Origin: Chlorobium sp.
Lineage (GTDB): Bacteria; Bacteroidota; Chlorobiia; Chlorobiales; Chlorobiaceae
DNA length: 64,000 bases
Direction: 5' to 3'
Assembly (NCBI GenBank): GCA_005862285.1
Contig: SZXW01000014.1
Location: 1 to 64,000, forward strand
Shown: in pieces, positions 1-21,983 of the stretch
How positions within the stretch are numbered: the first letter of the stretch is position 1
Layout: every line of letters starts with the position of its first letter
Notes under the pieces: model-generated
Seen by the model: the letters and a program-made list of their open reading frames with translations, nothing else
What the model was told of the DNA's origin: nothing
Database searches by the model: none
Position numbers and translations under genes: made by a program

Positions 1-207
1 GGAGGAGCGGAATATCGGTTAAATCATAATTGAAATAAATTATTGGTATTTCAGAAATGCCAACCATAATTCAGGAATTCTGCACATCAATCCCGGGGCT
101 GAAGAAAATGAGGGGTGGTGCCGCCATTTTTCCCGGTGCTGACACAACCGGCTACCAATATTCCGCCCCTCCGGGGCTATCCCATTCCCCATTACCCACT
201 ACCCAAT
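1..207. repeat. Partial composite repeat upstream of nth
   Basis: No gene is seen here. Bases 1-20 match the core of a palindromic GC-rich repeat (GGAGGAGYGGMATATCGGT) also found near 20813. Bases 135-179 carry the same core in the opposite orientation (GGCTACCAATATTCCG then CCCCTCCGGGGCT). Bases 181-207 are C-rich heptamer-like units (CCCATTC, CCCATTA, CCCACTA, CCCAAT) that run straight into the nth start codon. The left part of the element lies outside the window. The same parts recur at 6661-7160 and 20741-20955. Confidence 0.7.
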
Positions 208-840
208 ATGAAACCGAAAGAAAAAATAGCCGTCCTGAAAGAGGTGCTCGGGGCGAAGTTTCCCGATCCGAAAAGCGAACTGAAATTCGAGTCTCCTTTT
301 CAGCTGCTCGTAGCGACGATACTCGCCGCCCAGTCGACAGACAAACAGGTCAACATCATCACCGAAAAACTTTTCAAGGCAGCCCCTGACGCTGCAGGCA
401 TGTCCCGGCTGGACCTCGAAACCCTGAAAGACCATGTTCGATCGATCAACTATTTCAACAACAAGGCTAAAAACATTCTGGAGGTCAGCAGGATTCTCGT
501 CGAGCGGCACAACGGTCAGGTTCCCGATACGCGCGAAGGGCTCGAAAGCCTGCCCGGAGTCGGAAGAAAAACAGCGAACGTTGTCCTGAGCAATGCATTT
601 CGTCAGCCGGTCATGCCGGTCGATACCCATGTACACCGGGTAGCAAACCGCATCGGCCTTGTCAGGACACAGAAACCTGAAGAAACGGAAACGGAGCTTA
701 TGAAAATCATCCCTGAAGAGATGGTCATCGATTTCCATCACTACCTGCTGCTTCACGGGCGCTATACCTGCAAGGCAAAAAAACCCGATTGCGGTGTCTG
801 CGAGATCAGGGAGGTCTGTGATTTCCCTGAAAAAACCTAA
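208..840 (+). CDS. nth: Endonuclease III, DNA glycosylase/AP lyase
   Basis: Base-excision repair enzyme that removes oxidised pyrimidines and nicks the abasic site. The 210-residue product is the usual family length. It shows the helix-hairpin-helix LPGVGRKTANVV with the catalytic lysine, the catalytic aspartate in PVDTHVHRVANR, and the C-terminal [4Fe-4S] ligand pattern C-x6-C-x2-C-x5-C (CKAKKPDCGVCEIREVC). The start at 208 is chosen because homology begins there; the frame is open further upstream, but that stretch is translated repeat. No Shine-Dalgarno sequence precedes the ATG, since the C-rich heptamer repeat reaches the start codon. Its 3' end overlaps the convergent gene at 837 by 4 bases. 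Confidence 0.95.
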   Translation: MKPKEKIAVLKEVLGAKFPDPKSELKFESPFQLLVATILAAQSTDKQVNIITEKLFKAAPDAAGMSRLDLETLKDHVRSINYFNNKAKNILEVSRILVERHNGQVPDTREGLESLPGVGRKTANVVLSNAFRQPVMPVDTHVHRVANRIGLVRTQKPEETETELMKIIPEEMVIDFHHYLLLHGRYTCKAKKPDCGVCEIREVCDFPEKT

Positions 841-5712: not shown

Positions 5713-6660
5713 ATGAAAACCATAATCACCGATTCACCGGAAGAAGCCGCTGCTATCCTCAATGCAGGGAACATCGTCGCTTTTCCAACGGAAACCGTCT
5801 ACGGGCTCGGAGCCGGCATCTGTCATCCTGACGCGGTCAGCAAGATTTTCATTGCAAAAGAGCGCCCTTCCGACAACCCTCTCATCGTTCATGTTGCAGA
5901 TGTCGATCAGATAGGTGACGTTGCTGCCGAGCTCAATGAACATGCAAAAAAACTTGTCGAACGGTTTTTTCCGGGTCCACTCACACTGGTATTACGCAAA
6001 AATCCTCATATTCCCGTTTCGGTAACCGCCGGTCTTGACACGGTTGGCGTCAGATGCCCATCCAACCCCATTGCACACGAGTTCCTGAGAAGGGCCTGCT
6101 GCCCGGTTGCAGCACCATCAGCGAACATTTCGGGGGTACCAAGCTCCACCAACTGGGAAACGGTATACAAGGATCTTGCCGGAAAAATAAGCTGCATTCT
6201 TCGTGGTAATCCAAGTGAGATCGGCCTTGAATCAACTATTGTCGATTGTTCTGGGCCGGTACCGCTCCTGCTGAGAACAGGGGCCGTCACGCTCGAACAG
6301 CTGCAGGATGTCGTGCCGGAAACCATACCGGCCCCTCATACGGAAAAAAGTACCCCCCCGAAAAGCCCTGGGCTCAAGTATCCTCACTATGCTCCGGAAG
6401 CATCGATCGTTCTCATCCGACATGGTGAACCAGTAACCGCAGCCCCTCAATCTGCCTATATCGGACGCGGAGAAACCCCGGAGGGAGTTGCAGTCACAAA
6501 GAAATGCCGAAGCCTCGAAGAATACGGCAGAGAACTGTTCAGTTTCTTCAGACAGTGCGATGCCGAAGGCATCAGGGTGATCTATTGCGAACTTCCCGAA
6601 AACCGCGGGCTCGGCCGGGCTATCAGGGACAGACTGCAGCGCGCCGCGGGAGAGCACTAA
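5713..6660 (+). CDS. tsaC: Threonylcarbamoyl-AMP synthase (Sua5/YwlC type)
   Basis: Makes L-threonylcarbamoyl-AMP from threonine, bicarbonate and ATP, the first step of t6A37 modification of ANN-decoding tRNAs. At 315 residues it is the long Sua5 form: an N-terminal YrdC domain (GNIVAFPTETVYGLGAGI, KERPSDNPLIVHV, PSANISG) and a C-terminal Sua5 domain beginning at the linker SPGLKYPHYAPEA. The t6A-modifying methylthiotransferase mtaB lies elsewhere in the window (47123). The stop codon is followed directly by a composite repeat array. Confidence 0.93.
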   Translation: MKTIITDSPEEAAAILNAGNIVAFPTETVYGLGAGICHPDAVSKIFIAKERPSDNPLIVHVADVDQIGDVAAELNEHAKKLVERFFPGPLTLVLRKNPHIPVSVTAGLDTVGVRCPSNPIAHEFLRRACCPVAAPSANISGVPSSTNWETVYKDLAGKISCILRGNPSEIGLESTIVDCSGPVPLLLRTGAVTLEQLQDVVPETIPAPHTEKSTPPKSPGLKYPHYAPEASIVLIRHGEPVTAAPQSAYIGRGETPEGVAVTKKCRSLEEYGRELFSFFRQCDAEGIRVIYCELPENRGLGRAIRDRLQRAAGEH

Positions 6661-7164
6661 GAAGAAAGGGGAAAATGGGTAATAGGGAGTGGGCTCTGGG
6701 TACTGGGTACTGGGTACTGGGTACTGGGTACTGGGAAAAGATGTTATTACTCCGGCGATTAAGAGTATCAACTATCTTTCAGAATAAACTCCTTTTTTTG
6801 TCATTCTGAACGCAGTGAAGAATCCATATCTTTTCGTTTTACAGGAAGATGGATCCTTCACTGCGCTATGCTTCGTTCAGGATGACAGGAAAAAATCCGG
6901 GGCTGAAACCCCTCATGACCAACATGTCACCCCTCCGGGGCTGGACCCATTATTTTACACCTTTTCCAGGGGCTACACCCCTGGCTACCACTATCCCGCT
7001 CCTCCGGAGCTCTTTACATCCCACATCCCACCTCTTACCTCCCTCTCCCCAGTACCCAGTACCCATTACCCAGTACCCACTCAGTCCTCAGTCCTCAGCA
7101 CTCAGTCCTCAGTCCTCAGCACTCAGTCCTCCCACTACCCACTCCCCACTACCCAATCAGCCCC
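6661..7164. repeat. Composite repeat: heptamer arrays flanking palindromic elements
   Basis: A 504-base gene-free stretch made almost entirely of repeats. Five perfect copies plus four bases of the heptamer TGGGTAC occupy 6697-6735. An imperfect inverted repeat (arms 6800-6826 and 6849-6886, GTCATTCTGAACGCAGTGAAG type) follows. Bases 6898-7011 hold several small GC-rich palindromes, with the core GGCTACCACTATCCCGCTCC at 6983-7002. C-rich heptamers end the block: CCCAGTA units at 7048-7079 and seven consecutive CAGTCCT/CAGCACT units at 7082-7130. G-rich heptamers on one side and their complementary type on the other make the element inverted overall. It fills the space between the tsaC stop and the stop of the convergent gene at 7165. 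Confidence 0.9.
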
Positions 7165-9159
7165 TCAGAACTTGAGCATCGCTCCGAGATGAAATGAAGC
7201 CGGTGCACTGGTAAAACGCAGATCGTTACCGTCTCCATAGGTATCCCTGTCGCTGTACCATACCTTTTCAAATCTTGCAGCGAGCGAAAGCTGTTTCCAT
7301 GGCTTCAACGTGGCCAGCAGAATAAGAGATCTTCCTCTGCCGTTGTACATGCCCATATTGAACGTCAGCGGCAGGTCATCCTCGTAAACATAGACTGCGG
7401 CATCATAATCCTCGACGTTGAACACGGTAAAACGGGCTTTCATGTCCATGATCCCCCTTTTATAGCCAGCCTGCCCGCAGATCAGCTTTCCGTAGAAATC
7501 CTGATCTCCGGCAAGATATTTCCTAACAGCTCTTTTTATTTCCCCGAGCGCTCTAAAATGAAGATACCGGGAGATATCGATATCACAATCCAGACGGCAT
7601 CGATCGGTAATTTTCGGAAGGGCTGTCCATAACGGATATTTCGTTGTTCCCTGATTTTTCTGTTCCTCCTTGTATTTATGCTGCACCTGCAGATCCCAGG
7701 CCATTCCACCGGAGGGTTTCCATGTCAGGAATATTCTTGAATCATGCCCATCCGATGAGAACTGGCAGTGATCATCGAGCACCGGAAAACTGAACCAGTC
7801 GTAATAACCGCCTATCGAAAGGTTTTCAGCCAGCCTGACATTCAGTCCGGCATACACTCCTTTTTCATTGTCCGCATGATCGCCTCTTTCTGCGAAAGCA
7901 GATGCGAAGGGCGAATAGTAGCCCGTACCGTAATCACGCATTGTGACCAGGGCTGTAACACCATGCATCACTTCATAGTCGACGCCGATTTCCCATGACC
8001 GGTCAAATCCTGGTTTGTCAGTCCATGCCGCTTCCCCGAAAATGCCCAGTTTTCCAAAAGACAGATCGGCTTCAACTCCGCCAAGGTTGGCGGATGAATC
8101 GATACCTCCAAGAAATTTCAGCGGGATTCCGTAATCATAGTGCATCCAGGTCCCCCCTATTTTCCCGTTTATCGATGATGATTCAAGATTGCAGAGCAGA
8201 TTGCATCCGTAAACTTTCTCAGTCACATCATCCTTCCTGTTCCGTTCCGTCATGGTCCGATGATATCCCGATTCATCGAAACTGGTGATGATACCACTGG
8301 TTTTATTTATTATCGCATCGATGAGGTTCGCCGAATAGAACGCCGTCAATGCAAACGGCTTCAATTCTATCGTAGCTGCCGCACCCTGGAAAAAGCCATA
8401 CTCCGAACCGGATGCATAAGGAGATAGACGTTTGGACGAAAGCCTGATACTGCCGGAAAGGTCCGACCCACTCGTATAATATCGTCCTTGGCCGATAATG
8501 AGACCTTCACCGAAGTTCAATTCGTAATTGCCGACAACAAGATTTTTAACGATTCCGAGATCGGTTGCGCTAACGCTCATCGAGATGAAATCTGAAAATT
8601 CGGGTTCTCCTATATCTTTCTCATCGACGATACTGACTTTCCAGTTTGAATAGGCGAACTGCAGCCGATTATAGGTCTTGTAATTGTCCCCGGCATAATT
8701 ACCGTTGATAATCCCCTTCCTCGGCGGTGTTTCCCAAAGAACCCTGCTGTACAGGCTACCGCTGAATTCATCGAGGGATTTCGCTTCACGAACATCCGGT
8801 TCGGCAGCGAAACTGATGTATGGCACTATACTCTCGGCTTTTCGCCGGCCTATGATTTCGGCAAGCTGGTCAATTGAATCAATCGTTCGCTTTTTTCGTC
8901 TTTTGACTATACCGTGAATATCACTGCTGCCAAGCCACGGCAACAGGCGCAATTCATCAGGTACGGCACTGTTGATCCTTACCGGCTTCTGTTTCAAATC
9001 TTCCAGATCTTCGAAGAGTTTGTCGATATTCCCTGTAATCTCGCCTTTGTCAACAAGGTCTTCGATAGTATTCCCGGCAATACACGATACAGGGCGGAAA
9101 CATGCAGCGAGAAATAAAAAAACAAACGTCATGGCCGTTCTCAGGACATGACGTTTCAT
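7165..9159 (-). CDS. Helix-hairpin-helix protein with predicted outer-membrane beta-barrel
   Basis: The N-terminus MKRHVLRTAMTFVFLFLAAC is a signal peptide; LAAC could be a lipobox, or cleavage may fall later. Residues about 60-130 form ComEA-like HhH sequence (VRINSAVPDELRLLPWL, then IDSIDQLAEIIGRRKAESIV). The remaining ~500 residues are strand-rich with alternating aromatics and end in phenylalanine (HLGAMLKF), as outer-membrane barrels do. The start at 9159 puts the signal peptide at the N-terminus; two in-frame ATGs lie upstream (9180, 9186). It is last in the run hisH-hisA-scpB-rluB. The family is known in Bacteroidota/Chlorobiota but its function is not established; a DNA-related surface role is speculation from the HhH part. 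Confidence 0.8.
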   Translation of the reverse strand: MKRHVLRTAMTFVFLFLAACFRPVSCIAGNTIEDLVDKGEITGNIDKLFEDLEDLKQKPVRINSAVPDELRLLPWLGSSDIHGIVKRRKKRTIDSIDQLAEIIGRRKAESIVPYISFAAEPDVREAKSLDEFSGSLYSRVLWETPPRKGIINGNYAGDNYKTYNRLQFAYSNWKVSIVDEKDIGEPEFSDFISMSVSATDLGIVKNLVVGNYELNFGEGLIIGQGRYYTSGSDLSGSIRLSSKRLSPYASGSEYGFFQGAAATIELKPFALTAFYSANLIDAIINKTSGIITSFDESGYHRTMTERNRKDDVTEKVYGCNLLCNLESSSINGKIGGTWMHYDYGIPLKFLGGIDSSANLGGVEADLSFGKLGIFGEAAWTDKPGFDRSWEIGVDYEVMHGVTALVTMRDYGTGYYSPFASAFAERGDHADNEKGVYAGLNVRLAENLSIGGYYDWFSFPVLDDHCQFSSDGHDSRIFLTWKPSGGMAWDLQVQHKYKEEQKNQGTTKYPLWTALPKITDRCRLDCDIDISRYLHFRALGEIKRAVRKYLAGDQDFYGKLICGQAGYKRGIMDMKARFTVFNVEDYDAAVYVYEDDLPLTFNMGMYNGRGRSLILLATLKPWKQLSLAARFEKVWYSDRDTYGDGNDLRFTSAPASFHLGAMLKF

Positions 9160-9222
9160 GAAATAAGGAAGATGTTCCATAGCCATGATGGTTTTGTGTT
9201 TTCAACAAAACCGGATCAGGGC

Positions 9223-20740: not shown

Positions 20741-20955
20741 GCTACTGAGGTAATGGGAGGTGGGAGGACTGAGTGGGTAATGGTTACTGGGGATTGGGTG
20801 TCTTTAGCTCCGGAGGAGTGGCATATCGGTAGCCGAGGGCGTAAGCCCCAGGGTCAATACATTATATATTCATTGGGTTCAGTCCTTAGTCCTCAGCACT
20901 CAGTACTCAGTCCACCCTCTTTCCACTCCCCAATTCCCATTACCCATTACCCAGT
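20741..20955. repeat. Composite heptamer-palindrome repeat between NYN and ferrochelatase-like genes
   Basis: G-rich heptamer-like units (TAATGGG, AGTGGGTAATGG, TTGGGTG) occupy about 20751-20800. The GC palindrome core GGAGGAGTGGCATATCGGT lies at 20813-20831. C-rich units follow: CAGTCCT, TAGTCCT, CAGCACT, CAGTACT, CAGTCCA in register at 20880-20914, then CCCATTACCCATTACCCAGT. The final units overlap the last codons and the stop of the gene at 20940. The 340 bases from 20600 to 20939 otherwise hold only the NYN gene leader. Confidence 0.85.
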
Positions 20956-21983
20956 TCATTGCTCATACAAGTGATCTGTTCGACAGCGCTGACAACTTTT
21001 AACGCGAGGTAAGAGGTAAAGAGCTGCGAATTGTTCAGACAGGGAATGTTGTAAACTGAACTGTCCGGAACTTCCGATATAAGCTCCGCTGCGCGATGGA
21101 TCGTTTCATTTCCATCGGCAAAATAGCCGCATGCGAAAATATCGACAGATTCGGCCTGTTCTTTCTTCAGATCGAAGCATATTTCTTCAAACGAAGGTTT
21201 TGTCCATTCACCGCCAACATTATGATTCAGGTAAGCCGTTCTCACTGATCTGTATGGATTGTCCGGGTGTGCGACGATCATGCTCCGAAGCCGGTCGGCA
21301 AAAATCATGGTCGCGTCAAGACCGGTACGGAATTTCGGCGTATCTCCTGTTTTATCGGTAACCAGCGTTCCATGATGAAGAAGAAGAAGCATCCGTTTTT
21401 TATCTCCTGACGTTCTGCTGAACCGGCTGTTTTGCAGGAGATGATCGAGAATTACGAAATAAAGCTGTTCATCGCTCCAGAAACGACTTAGTACCTTTAC
21501 TTTTGAAAGTTCCTGTACGCTGAACGACGATGCAAGATAGCTGCATAGCATACCGCATGAAAGAGTGCTGTCCACAGGAGACATTGAAACGATCACCTGG
21601 GCATCCGAACAACGGGTTTTTTCGATTACCTTTTCAACATTTGGTTCCGAGGCTGAAAAAGCCGCGTGAACCTCAAAATCGAACTGACCGGCAAGTAATG
21701 ATGAGTTCAGTTGGCGGTTTAATTCATCCCCCTGTTCGCGGGTGATCCTGTTATGGGGTGATGCCTGTGCATTTGAAAACGAACGGACCCGTTTTCTGAT
21801 CGAAGAGGTAACGGCAATAAACTGCTGCAGAGGCAAGGGAATTGGCATGACCATGGATGCATGTCCCAGTGTCAGCATGGTTACCCTGTAGTTTTCAAGA
21901 ATACCTGTTGTTTCGGCTTCGCCGTGAGCTGCGAGAATGACTGCGATCTTTCTTTTTACCGGCAAAGCTGCCTCCGACTGCAT
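20940..21983 (-). CDS. Ferrochelatase-family (HemH-like) protein, divergent
   Basis: 347 residues. The N-terminus KIAVILAAHGEAETTGILEN corresponds to the start of ferrochelatases. LLLLHHGTLV takes the place of the SAHSxP motif with its catalytic histidine. ACGYFADGNETIHRAAE matches the GFxxDCLETLxE region with its glutamate, and NIPCLNNSQLF matches the C-terminal PCLNDSxxF. Sequence is far from canonical HemH, so metal insertion into protoporphyrin is likely but not certain; another tetrapyrrole chelation role is possible. Its start shares one base with the stop of the membrane-fusion gene upstream (TGATG), indicating coupling. The heptamer repeat encodes its last residues. Confidence 0.7.
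   Translation of the reverse strand: MQSEAALPVKRKIAVILAAHGEAETTGILENYRVTMLTLGHASMVMPIPLPLQQFIAVTSSIRKRVRSFSNAQASPHNRITREQGDELNRQLNSSLLAGQFDFEVHAAFSASEPNVEKVIEKTRCSDAQVIVSMSPVDSTLSCGMLCSYLASSFSVQELSKVKVLSRFWSDEQLYFVILDHLLQNSRFSRTSGDKKRMLLLLHHGTLVTDKTGDTPKFRTGLDATMIFADRLRSMIVAHPDNPYRSVRTAYLNHNVGGEWTKPSFEEICFDLKKEQAESVDIFACGYFADGNETIHRAAELISEVPDSSVYNIPCLNNSQLFTSYLALKVVSAVEQITCMSNELGNG

Follow-up and report, generated by a model that had tools for sequence, protein, structure and literature searches.

The stretch of DNA analysed here, referred to as the window, comprises 64,000 nucleotides and corresponds to bases 1-64000 of contig C7 of a Chlorobium genome (G000, the own genome in what follows) of 2.61 Mb in 15 contigs. 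Within the window, two ORFs converge, 5713-6660 on the plus strand and 7165-9186 on the minus strand, and the gap between their stop codons is exactly the 504 bases 6661-7164. The left neighbour is a Sua5/YrdC-type gene, and the large ORF on the right had no Pfam match. From left to right, the gap contains G-rich heptamers, a 62-base spacer, two facing TGTC-tagged palindromes, GTAG-tagged palindromes (one worn copy, then one better copy) and C-rich heptamers, with the palindromes beyond the TGTC pair spanning 6897-7010. The coordinates of these features, and of the two further copies in the window, are given in Table 1.

Table 1. Repeat features of the window, with coordinates counted from its first base.
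Feature	Position	Strand	Remarks
Module A (GTAG) of the copy truncated at the contig end	152..175	-	
C-rich heptamers	181..204	+	directly before the in-frame ATG (208) of an endonuclease III-type gene
G-rich heptamer array, left arm: TGGGTAA, TAGGGAG, then TGGGTAC x5	6676..6735	+	
TGGGTAC x5	6697-6731		within the left G-rich array
62-base spacer	6736..6797	+	recurs with the following TGTC part in other copies
Left TGTC-tagged palindrome (TGTC-ATTCT..AGAAT-CCA)	6799..6826	+	by eye, against the CGTC/TGTC description in the available part of PMC3733652
Right TGTC-tagged palindrome, inverted partner of the left one	6850..6887	-	inverted repeat I9 and by eye
Degenerate GTAG palindrome module, tag region worn	6897..6950	-	the two copies cross-match
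Second hairpin of the GTAG module (CCAGGGG..CCCCTGG)	6966..6984	-	read from the sequence
GTAG module form A, minus-strand reading AGCTCCGGAGGAGCG-GGATAGT-GGTAG	6985..7011	-	
C-rich heptamer array, right arm: CCCAGTA, CAGTCCT, CAGCACT, CCCACTA	7048..7155	+	
G-rich heptamers, short and worn, second composite	20750..20798	-	laxer caller
GTAG module A and second hairpin, second composite	20806..20850	+	
C-rich heptamers, second composite	20877..20955	+	overlap the end of the ferrochelatase ORF 20940-21983 (-)

The preliminary description of this DNA had read the gap as a composite inverted repeat in which palindromes separate G-rich from C-rich heptamers, and this structure is present: a period-7 scan found 4 arrays in the window versus a mean of 0 in 20 single-base shuffles, and the inverted-repeat arm I2 of the gap measures 40 nt with 90% complementarity. 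It had also suggested that the arrays could form a long hairpin, with which the predicted RNA fold of the composite agrees (-205.6 kcal/mol versus -139 +- 7 for 100 shuffles, z = -9.4, 0/100 as good), the two arrays being paired as arms that enclose the palindromes. An Rfam search of the whole window at gathering thresholds returned one tRNA and nothing else. The composite was also considered as an intrinsic terminator, a reading that was dropped, as a hairpin followed by a T run was not above chance at window positions 6500-7300 (1 found versus 0.7 expected).

The same order of parts had been claimed for 20741-20955. This second composite does hold one GTAG module and C-rich heptamers, but its G arm is short and worn and the TGTC pair is absent from it. 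The stricter array caller misses this G arm and scores the gap as C arrays only, and the DNA fold of the composite is weakly better than that of shuffled sequences (z = -1.88, 9/200 as good). At 1-207, where the right part of the composite had been recognised, module A and C-rich heptamers are indeed found, and only this part is seen because contig C7 ends at window base 1, cutting off the left side. The heptamers of this copy, at window 181-210, end no more than three bases before the in-frame ATG of the endonuclease III-type gene; were that ATG the start codon, an ordinary ribosome-binding site would not fit in between. The situation in another genome of the genus, G008, is similar.

When the 504-base composite was searched against the own genome, at least 87 matches were obtained at E <= 0.01 (the best 40 of 95 candidates were scored). 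The whole order is closely copied at C3:10989-11467 and, reversed, at C6:135-482, and partial copies lie at C3:9695, C3:35461 and C9:45481. Over 93 bases, the TGTC part shows 100% identity among C7, C3:11135 and C6:288, and the 62-base spacer matches C3:11073 (98% over 62 bases) and C6:382 (100% over 46 bases), whereas the heptamers beside these parts differ among C7, C3 and C6 (TAC, TAT, mixed). TGTC-type palindromes also occur without heptamers, for example at C9:163489, C12:80773, C14:67815 and C15:18888. Contigs C7, C3 and C9 start inside such repeats or no more than about 60 bases away from one, and the copies may therefore be undercounted.

The heptamers themselves are far more numerous than expected from backward controls. 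Allowing at most one mismatch, the heptamer pattern gave 80+121 matches in the own genome versus 15+30 for the backward control, and in the stretches of a first survey of GTAG cores a caller of short runs found 127 runs versus 28 in the same sequence reversed, so that some of the short runs are chance or read-backward arrays. In our genus sample 17/61 genomes carry the pattern, very unevenly, with 125 matches in the own genome, 188 in G008, 132 in G047, 117 in G058, 45 in G032 and at most 18 in any other. Across the phylum, 51/394 genomes (genus included) carry it, and genomes of other families can be rich in matches (G159, 227; G382, 138; G257, 46). The unit is of the GGGNANT type, neighbouring units varying by 0.36 and 0.35 at two of the seven positions versus 0.12-0.26 elsewhere; these figures come from period-only calling of 45 arrays, another unit table being biased by its search pattern, and as the own-genome stretches were chosen mostly by matches, these 45 period-7 arrays are not an unbiased genome sample. 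Dense arrays lie between 30 and 50 kb of C9 (L074, L075), among genes that by eye resemble toxin-antitoxin and sugar-metabolism genes, and up to about 45.5 kb nearly all arrays of this cluster are G-rich on one strand. Other heptamer words form arrays or arms at gene ends as well, namely CAATGAG, TGCTTGA and GTCTAGC (L082 11710-11790; L192; L187). In G159 (L178-L183), several C-rich arrays adjoin what by eye resemble CGTC-type palindromes, and no palindrome shared beside the arrays of G382 was seen.

The palindromes of the composite are REP-like and carry TGTC and GTAG tags. The GTAG module reads as a hairpin, a few bases with ATAT, GGTAG and then, in most copies, a second hairpin, and it exists as form A (GCYCC..GGRGC) or form B (ATCCC..GGGAT), the two pairing as inverted dimers. 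With at most one mismatch, the module pattern occurs in 24/61 genus genomes, and the backward control gave 0 in all 61. In the own genome it found 24 copies (backward control 0), all of which were checked for nearby heptamers by counting heptamer runs of at least 10 bases within 80 bp upstream. This census was used instead of a first survey of 41 GTAG cores (upstream 26 G, 6 C and 9 none, a few of the cores being due to chance); a narrower module pattern, which found 3 copies versus 1 in the control, was likewise set aside.

The orientation of the heptamers relative to the palindrome core, which the preliminary description had proposed to survey, depends on the form of the module. Among form A copies, a G-rich run lies on the hairpin side in 16/17 and there is none in the remaining one (C1:231733 being counted as form A by its hairpin), and among form B copies the run is C-rich in 5/7 (one of these also having a G-rich run further off), G-rich in one and missing in one. 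The module at 6985-7011 has, by eye, 2 mismatches to the census pattern and falls outside the 24 counted copies; its heptamers are on the same side and strand as in the counted form A copies, with the right array of the gap on its hairpin side. No module B was found on the far side of this array, nor any complete B-A dimer within 6661-7164.

The stretches examined contained 18 dimers with different linkers, all of them B-A and five of them in the own genome. Outside G015, a sister genome described below, there are 12 (5 in G000, 6 in G008 and 1 in G034), and the linker contains heptamer units in 9/12, two of these nine linkers holding only one full unit; the heptamers are G-rich on the B-to-A strand in all nine, and the other three dimers have no heptamer of the GGGNANT kind in their linker. 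The G015 dimers have a 32-35 base A/T-rich linker free of heptamers in 6/6. The dimer linker in the own genome and a close relative usually contains GGGNANT-type heptamers, on the same strand each time, and the dimers explain the opposite heptamer sense at A and B, since the array occupies the linker of B(-)-linker-A(+) and is G-rich when read from B to A. The treatment of heptamers and palindromes as one composite holds as far as their polarity is fixed, but the parts are separable and each occurs alone in other genus genomes: G032 has 45 array matches and 0 modules, and G007 has 33 modules and 0 array matches.

A genome-wide order and orientation of the heptamers, on which the preliminary description had staked its reading, is largely kept. 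We examined 52 gaps with arrays from G000, G008, G047 and G058, some of them orthologous, with ORFs called by a simple hexamer score. The edge counts cover arrays that lie outside called ORFs (8 arrays in this first set and 15 in a second lie inside, some of these ORFs being poor) and that have a called gene on both sides. Many counts throughout this analysis rest on copies of shared descent. At stop codons (distance at most 60 bp) the strand with the G is the coding strand in 35/36 arrays; upstream of starts, over the same distance, it is the template strand in 9/9. Both statements are contained in a single geometric rule that ignores gene direction, in which the left edge of a gap is G-rich and the right edge C-rich: it is obeyed by 45/46 arrays within 60 bp of a gene, namely 22/23 in convergent, 19/19 in tandem and 4/4 in divergent gaps. 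In gaps with both kinds of array, G-rich precedes C-rich in 17/17. The rule is much weaker further than 60 bp from a gene, where 32/51 arrays point inward. In the second set, 19/24 arrays point inward (G159 4/4, G382 11/15, further members of the own family 4/5) and 5/24 break the rule, and G precedes C in 2/2 gaps with both kinds. For arrays that lie inside called ORFs, the coding strand is the C-rich one in 7/8 (first set) and 12/15 (second set).

Shared sites in related genomes differ in both the length and the type of their arrays. At the window site, a close relative (L081) shares the left part, with 11 perfect TGGGTAC units instead of 5, and carries different sequence on the right. In L082 the site holds a hairpin built of another heptamer, CAATGAG, and in another relative a GGACTGA array starts before the contig ends. 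The comparison of insertion sites across strains, as originally proposed, thus yielded a filled site in L081 and empty ones in three more distant relatives (L083, L085, L086), in which the two flanking genes end tens of bases apart where the window has a 504-base spacer, but the empty sites are too diverged for a base-exact junction. After a putative dihydropteroate synthase gene (C5:2649-3557, assigned by eye), the heptamer type is not the same in the two close genomes. A hairpin element with GGGCACC at its ends and TTGA flanking it on each side lies at about 6230-6310 of L108 (G008 C8) and is absent from C5:964 of the own genome.

A transposase gene accompanies the module in sister genomes. 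G015, a genome without any heptamer match, carries a gene for a 157-aa Y1 transposase with B-A dimers on both sides, several in tandem on one. The module adjoins the gene in the three closest homologues of this transposase (G015, 99% identity; G054, 77%; G058, 64%), on both sides in G015 and G058 and on one side in G054, and the modules beside it in G058 are of the form with the second hairpin, as in the window genome. No module was found around the next two homologues (41% and 39% identity). A stricter core pattern placed a module at only 1/12 of the Y1 loci examined (L087-L098), and the G054 module was missed by it and seen only with a looser one. All three transposases (3/3) pass the cut-off of the IS200/IS605 model NF033573, their scores with the REP-associated model NF047646 (41.8, 29.8 and 34.1) are below its cut-off of 80, and the closest solved structures, 2xm3 among them, are entries that bear the name transposase.

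The own genome gave 0 matches to this transposase, which is also absent from G008 and G047, and its modules are therefore orphans. Its two Y1-type genes have no module and no inverted repeat beside them, and for this reason they were dropped as candidate mobilisers. A transposase flanked by REPs in the same genome, the arrangement that defines a REPtron, was thus seen in G015, G054 and G058 and not in the own genome. Any Y1 transposase is found in 8/8 genomes with at least 10 array matches versus 36/53 others (Fisher p = 0.06), and array matches correlate with Y1 genes by rank (0.46, p = 0.0002, uncorrected for kinship or assembly quality), which is no more than suggestive of a link of the arrays to any Y1 transposase and was set aside. 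Close to one of the own-genome Y1-type genes lies a CRISPR-like array with a 28-base repeat, as judged by eye (L097; C1, about 219830-220690).

The heptamers resemble the cyanobacterial STRR, to which they had been likened from the start. Heptameric G-quadruplex repeats have been described with the units GGGAATC in Xanthomonas and GGGGAYT in Nostoc (PMC4692102, available part), and the likeness to filamentous cyanobacterial heptamers is supported to the extent that GGGNANT covers the Nostoc unit; the Xanthomonas unit GGGANTN is in another register. The repeats of both bacteria share with ours a 7-bp unit with free positions, many copies, a mostly intergenic location, inverted pairs and the same strand rule near starts and stops, and inverted pairs number 70 and 75 in two Xanthomonas genomes and are few in Nostoc. 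The available text of that article names REPs and MITEs only as other repeat classes, whereas here the arrays fill REP dimers and adjoin REPs. In the P6b stem of the Nostoc tRNA-Leu intron, too, complementary seven-base motifs occupy two arms in varying copy number, but these arms lie within an intron RNA, have the motifs TDNGATT and NNTGAGT and come with no mention of REPs in the part of the source at hand (PMC4476775).

The palindromes likewise belong to known kinds. With BIMEs, GTAG REPs and REPtrons the module shares the GTAG tag by a palindrome, inverted dimers with a linker and dispersed copies, and the Y1 transposase gene beside copies in the sister genomes recalls REPtrons; unlike in GTAG REPs, most copies have a hairpin on each side of the tag, the linker is made of heptamers and the transposases fit an IS200/IS605 model (PMC8266576, PMC3733652, as far as available). 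In those same portions GTAG repeats are recorded from Proteobacteria, Cyanobacteria, Chloroflexi and PVC and not from Chlorobi, and REPs tagged CGTC/TGTC from five phyla with Chlorobi among them (PMC3733652). The pair at 6799-6887 matches the latter by description, with the TGTC tag, a stem starting AT, a CCA tail and an inverted dimer all present by eye, but differs in its 62-base spacer and, in several copies, in the adjoining G-rich heptamers. Among the open-access papers retrieved (titles and abstract starts) we recognised no account of these arrays or of the module in Chlorobiaceae, and found none of the place of heptamer arrays in REP dimers. The parts are of known kinds, and their fixed assembly is a variant that we did not find described.

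The reading that we favour, with a probability of roughly 0.6, is that the stretch is a non-autonomous, BIME-like mosaic of REP-like elements whose linkers and outer arms are putative G-quadruplex-type heptamer arrays. Forms A and B of the GTAG module pair as inverted dimers around a linker that usually holds heptamers, and half-dimers would come to lie at gene borders, as appears to be the case in the window, with the array next to the gene and the palindrome inward, which would account for both the inward-pointing rule and the G-to-C inverted repeat. The right arm of the gap may be such a half-dimer; its left G array adjoins the TGTC spacer and not a dimer. Half-dimers could also be the source of single arrays. 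Judging from the gene neighbourhood in the sister genomes, the module probably owes its dispersal to a single-strand transposase of the IS200/IS605 type that acted on its hairpins, and an ancestor of the G015-type transposase gene may have moved the modules of the own genome. Units would then duplicate and recombine into mosaics, and arrays lengthen or shorten, as the 5 versus 11 perfect units at one shared site show, probably by slippage. The 504-base spacer, predicted to fold into one long hairpin, may insulate converging transcription, though its main explanation would be persistence as a repeat.

Selection could instead have shaped the arrays as regulatory elements, with heptamers acting as putative G-quadruplexes or hairpins at transcript ends (insulators, terminators or mRNA protectors) and their orientation set relative to transcription, independently of REPs. 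The strand counts near stops (35/36) and starts (9/9) are in keeping with this, as are the same strand rule in Xanthomonas and Nostoc (PMC4692102, in its available part), the long predicted hairpin and the hairpin of a different heptamer that L082 carries at the window site. Yet the two transcription rules collapse to one direction-blind geometric rule, obeyed by 45/46 arrays, and at 6500-7300 intrinsic terminators are no more frequent than chance; we regard a selected regulatory origin as rather unlikely. That the arrays are plain microsatellites, which arise by slippage anywhere and merely share the small intergenic space with REPs, seems to us more improbable still. Their orientation would then stem from the common descent of a few copies and from stop codons on the G-rich strand, and arrays in ORFs are indeed C-rich on the coding strand (7/8 and 12/15), as expected from a stop-codon filter. 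But most edge arrays start after the stop codon, beyond the reach of that filter, and nevertheless obey the rule. Array length and unit type change fast, as slippage would have it, and the G382 arrays have no shared palindrome that we could see beside them; orientation, however, follows the REP form, being opposite for A and B, and the inward rule is also seen, in a less strict form, in further genomes, some of them from other families of the phylum (19/24).

If the REP-like mosaic is extended beyond this genus, bacterial heptamer G-quadruplex arrays would at least partly be linker tracts of palindromic elements moved by IS200-type single-strand transposases, and the strand rule would be an insertion footprint; we put this forward as a conjecture that may well prove wrong. 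Were it true, the published start/stop strand preference would be one rule, with arrays pointing inward from both gap edges, and a rule so far related to transcription could be recast as a possible footprint of element ends. The polarity of the arrays matches the remnant expected if each host-side end received a G-rich 3' tract. In the available portions of the literature, heptamer arrays are described as free-standing microsatellites, and REPs and heptameric G4 repeats are treated apart. These are two repeat classes of unexplained spread, found here in fixed mutual polarity, which together with the palindrome-flanked transposase in sister species offers a testable origin for the arrays. The composites, moreover, change fast enough to suggest themselves as loci for strain typing, and they probably account for breaks in assemblies.

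Heptamer-derived sequence is also found within a coding region. The gene at C9:48997-50010 (L075:8997-10010), which resembles that of a GDP-L-fucose synthase, has two in-frame heptamer-derived inserts at otherwise conserved positions. The first makes it 9-12 codons longer than 19/19 homologues at that place; the second adds 8 codons relative to 15/19 homologues, and the other 4/19 have 6-8 extra codons there, in some resembling heptamer-coded peptides.
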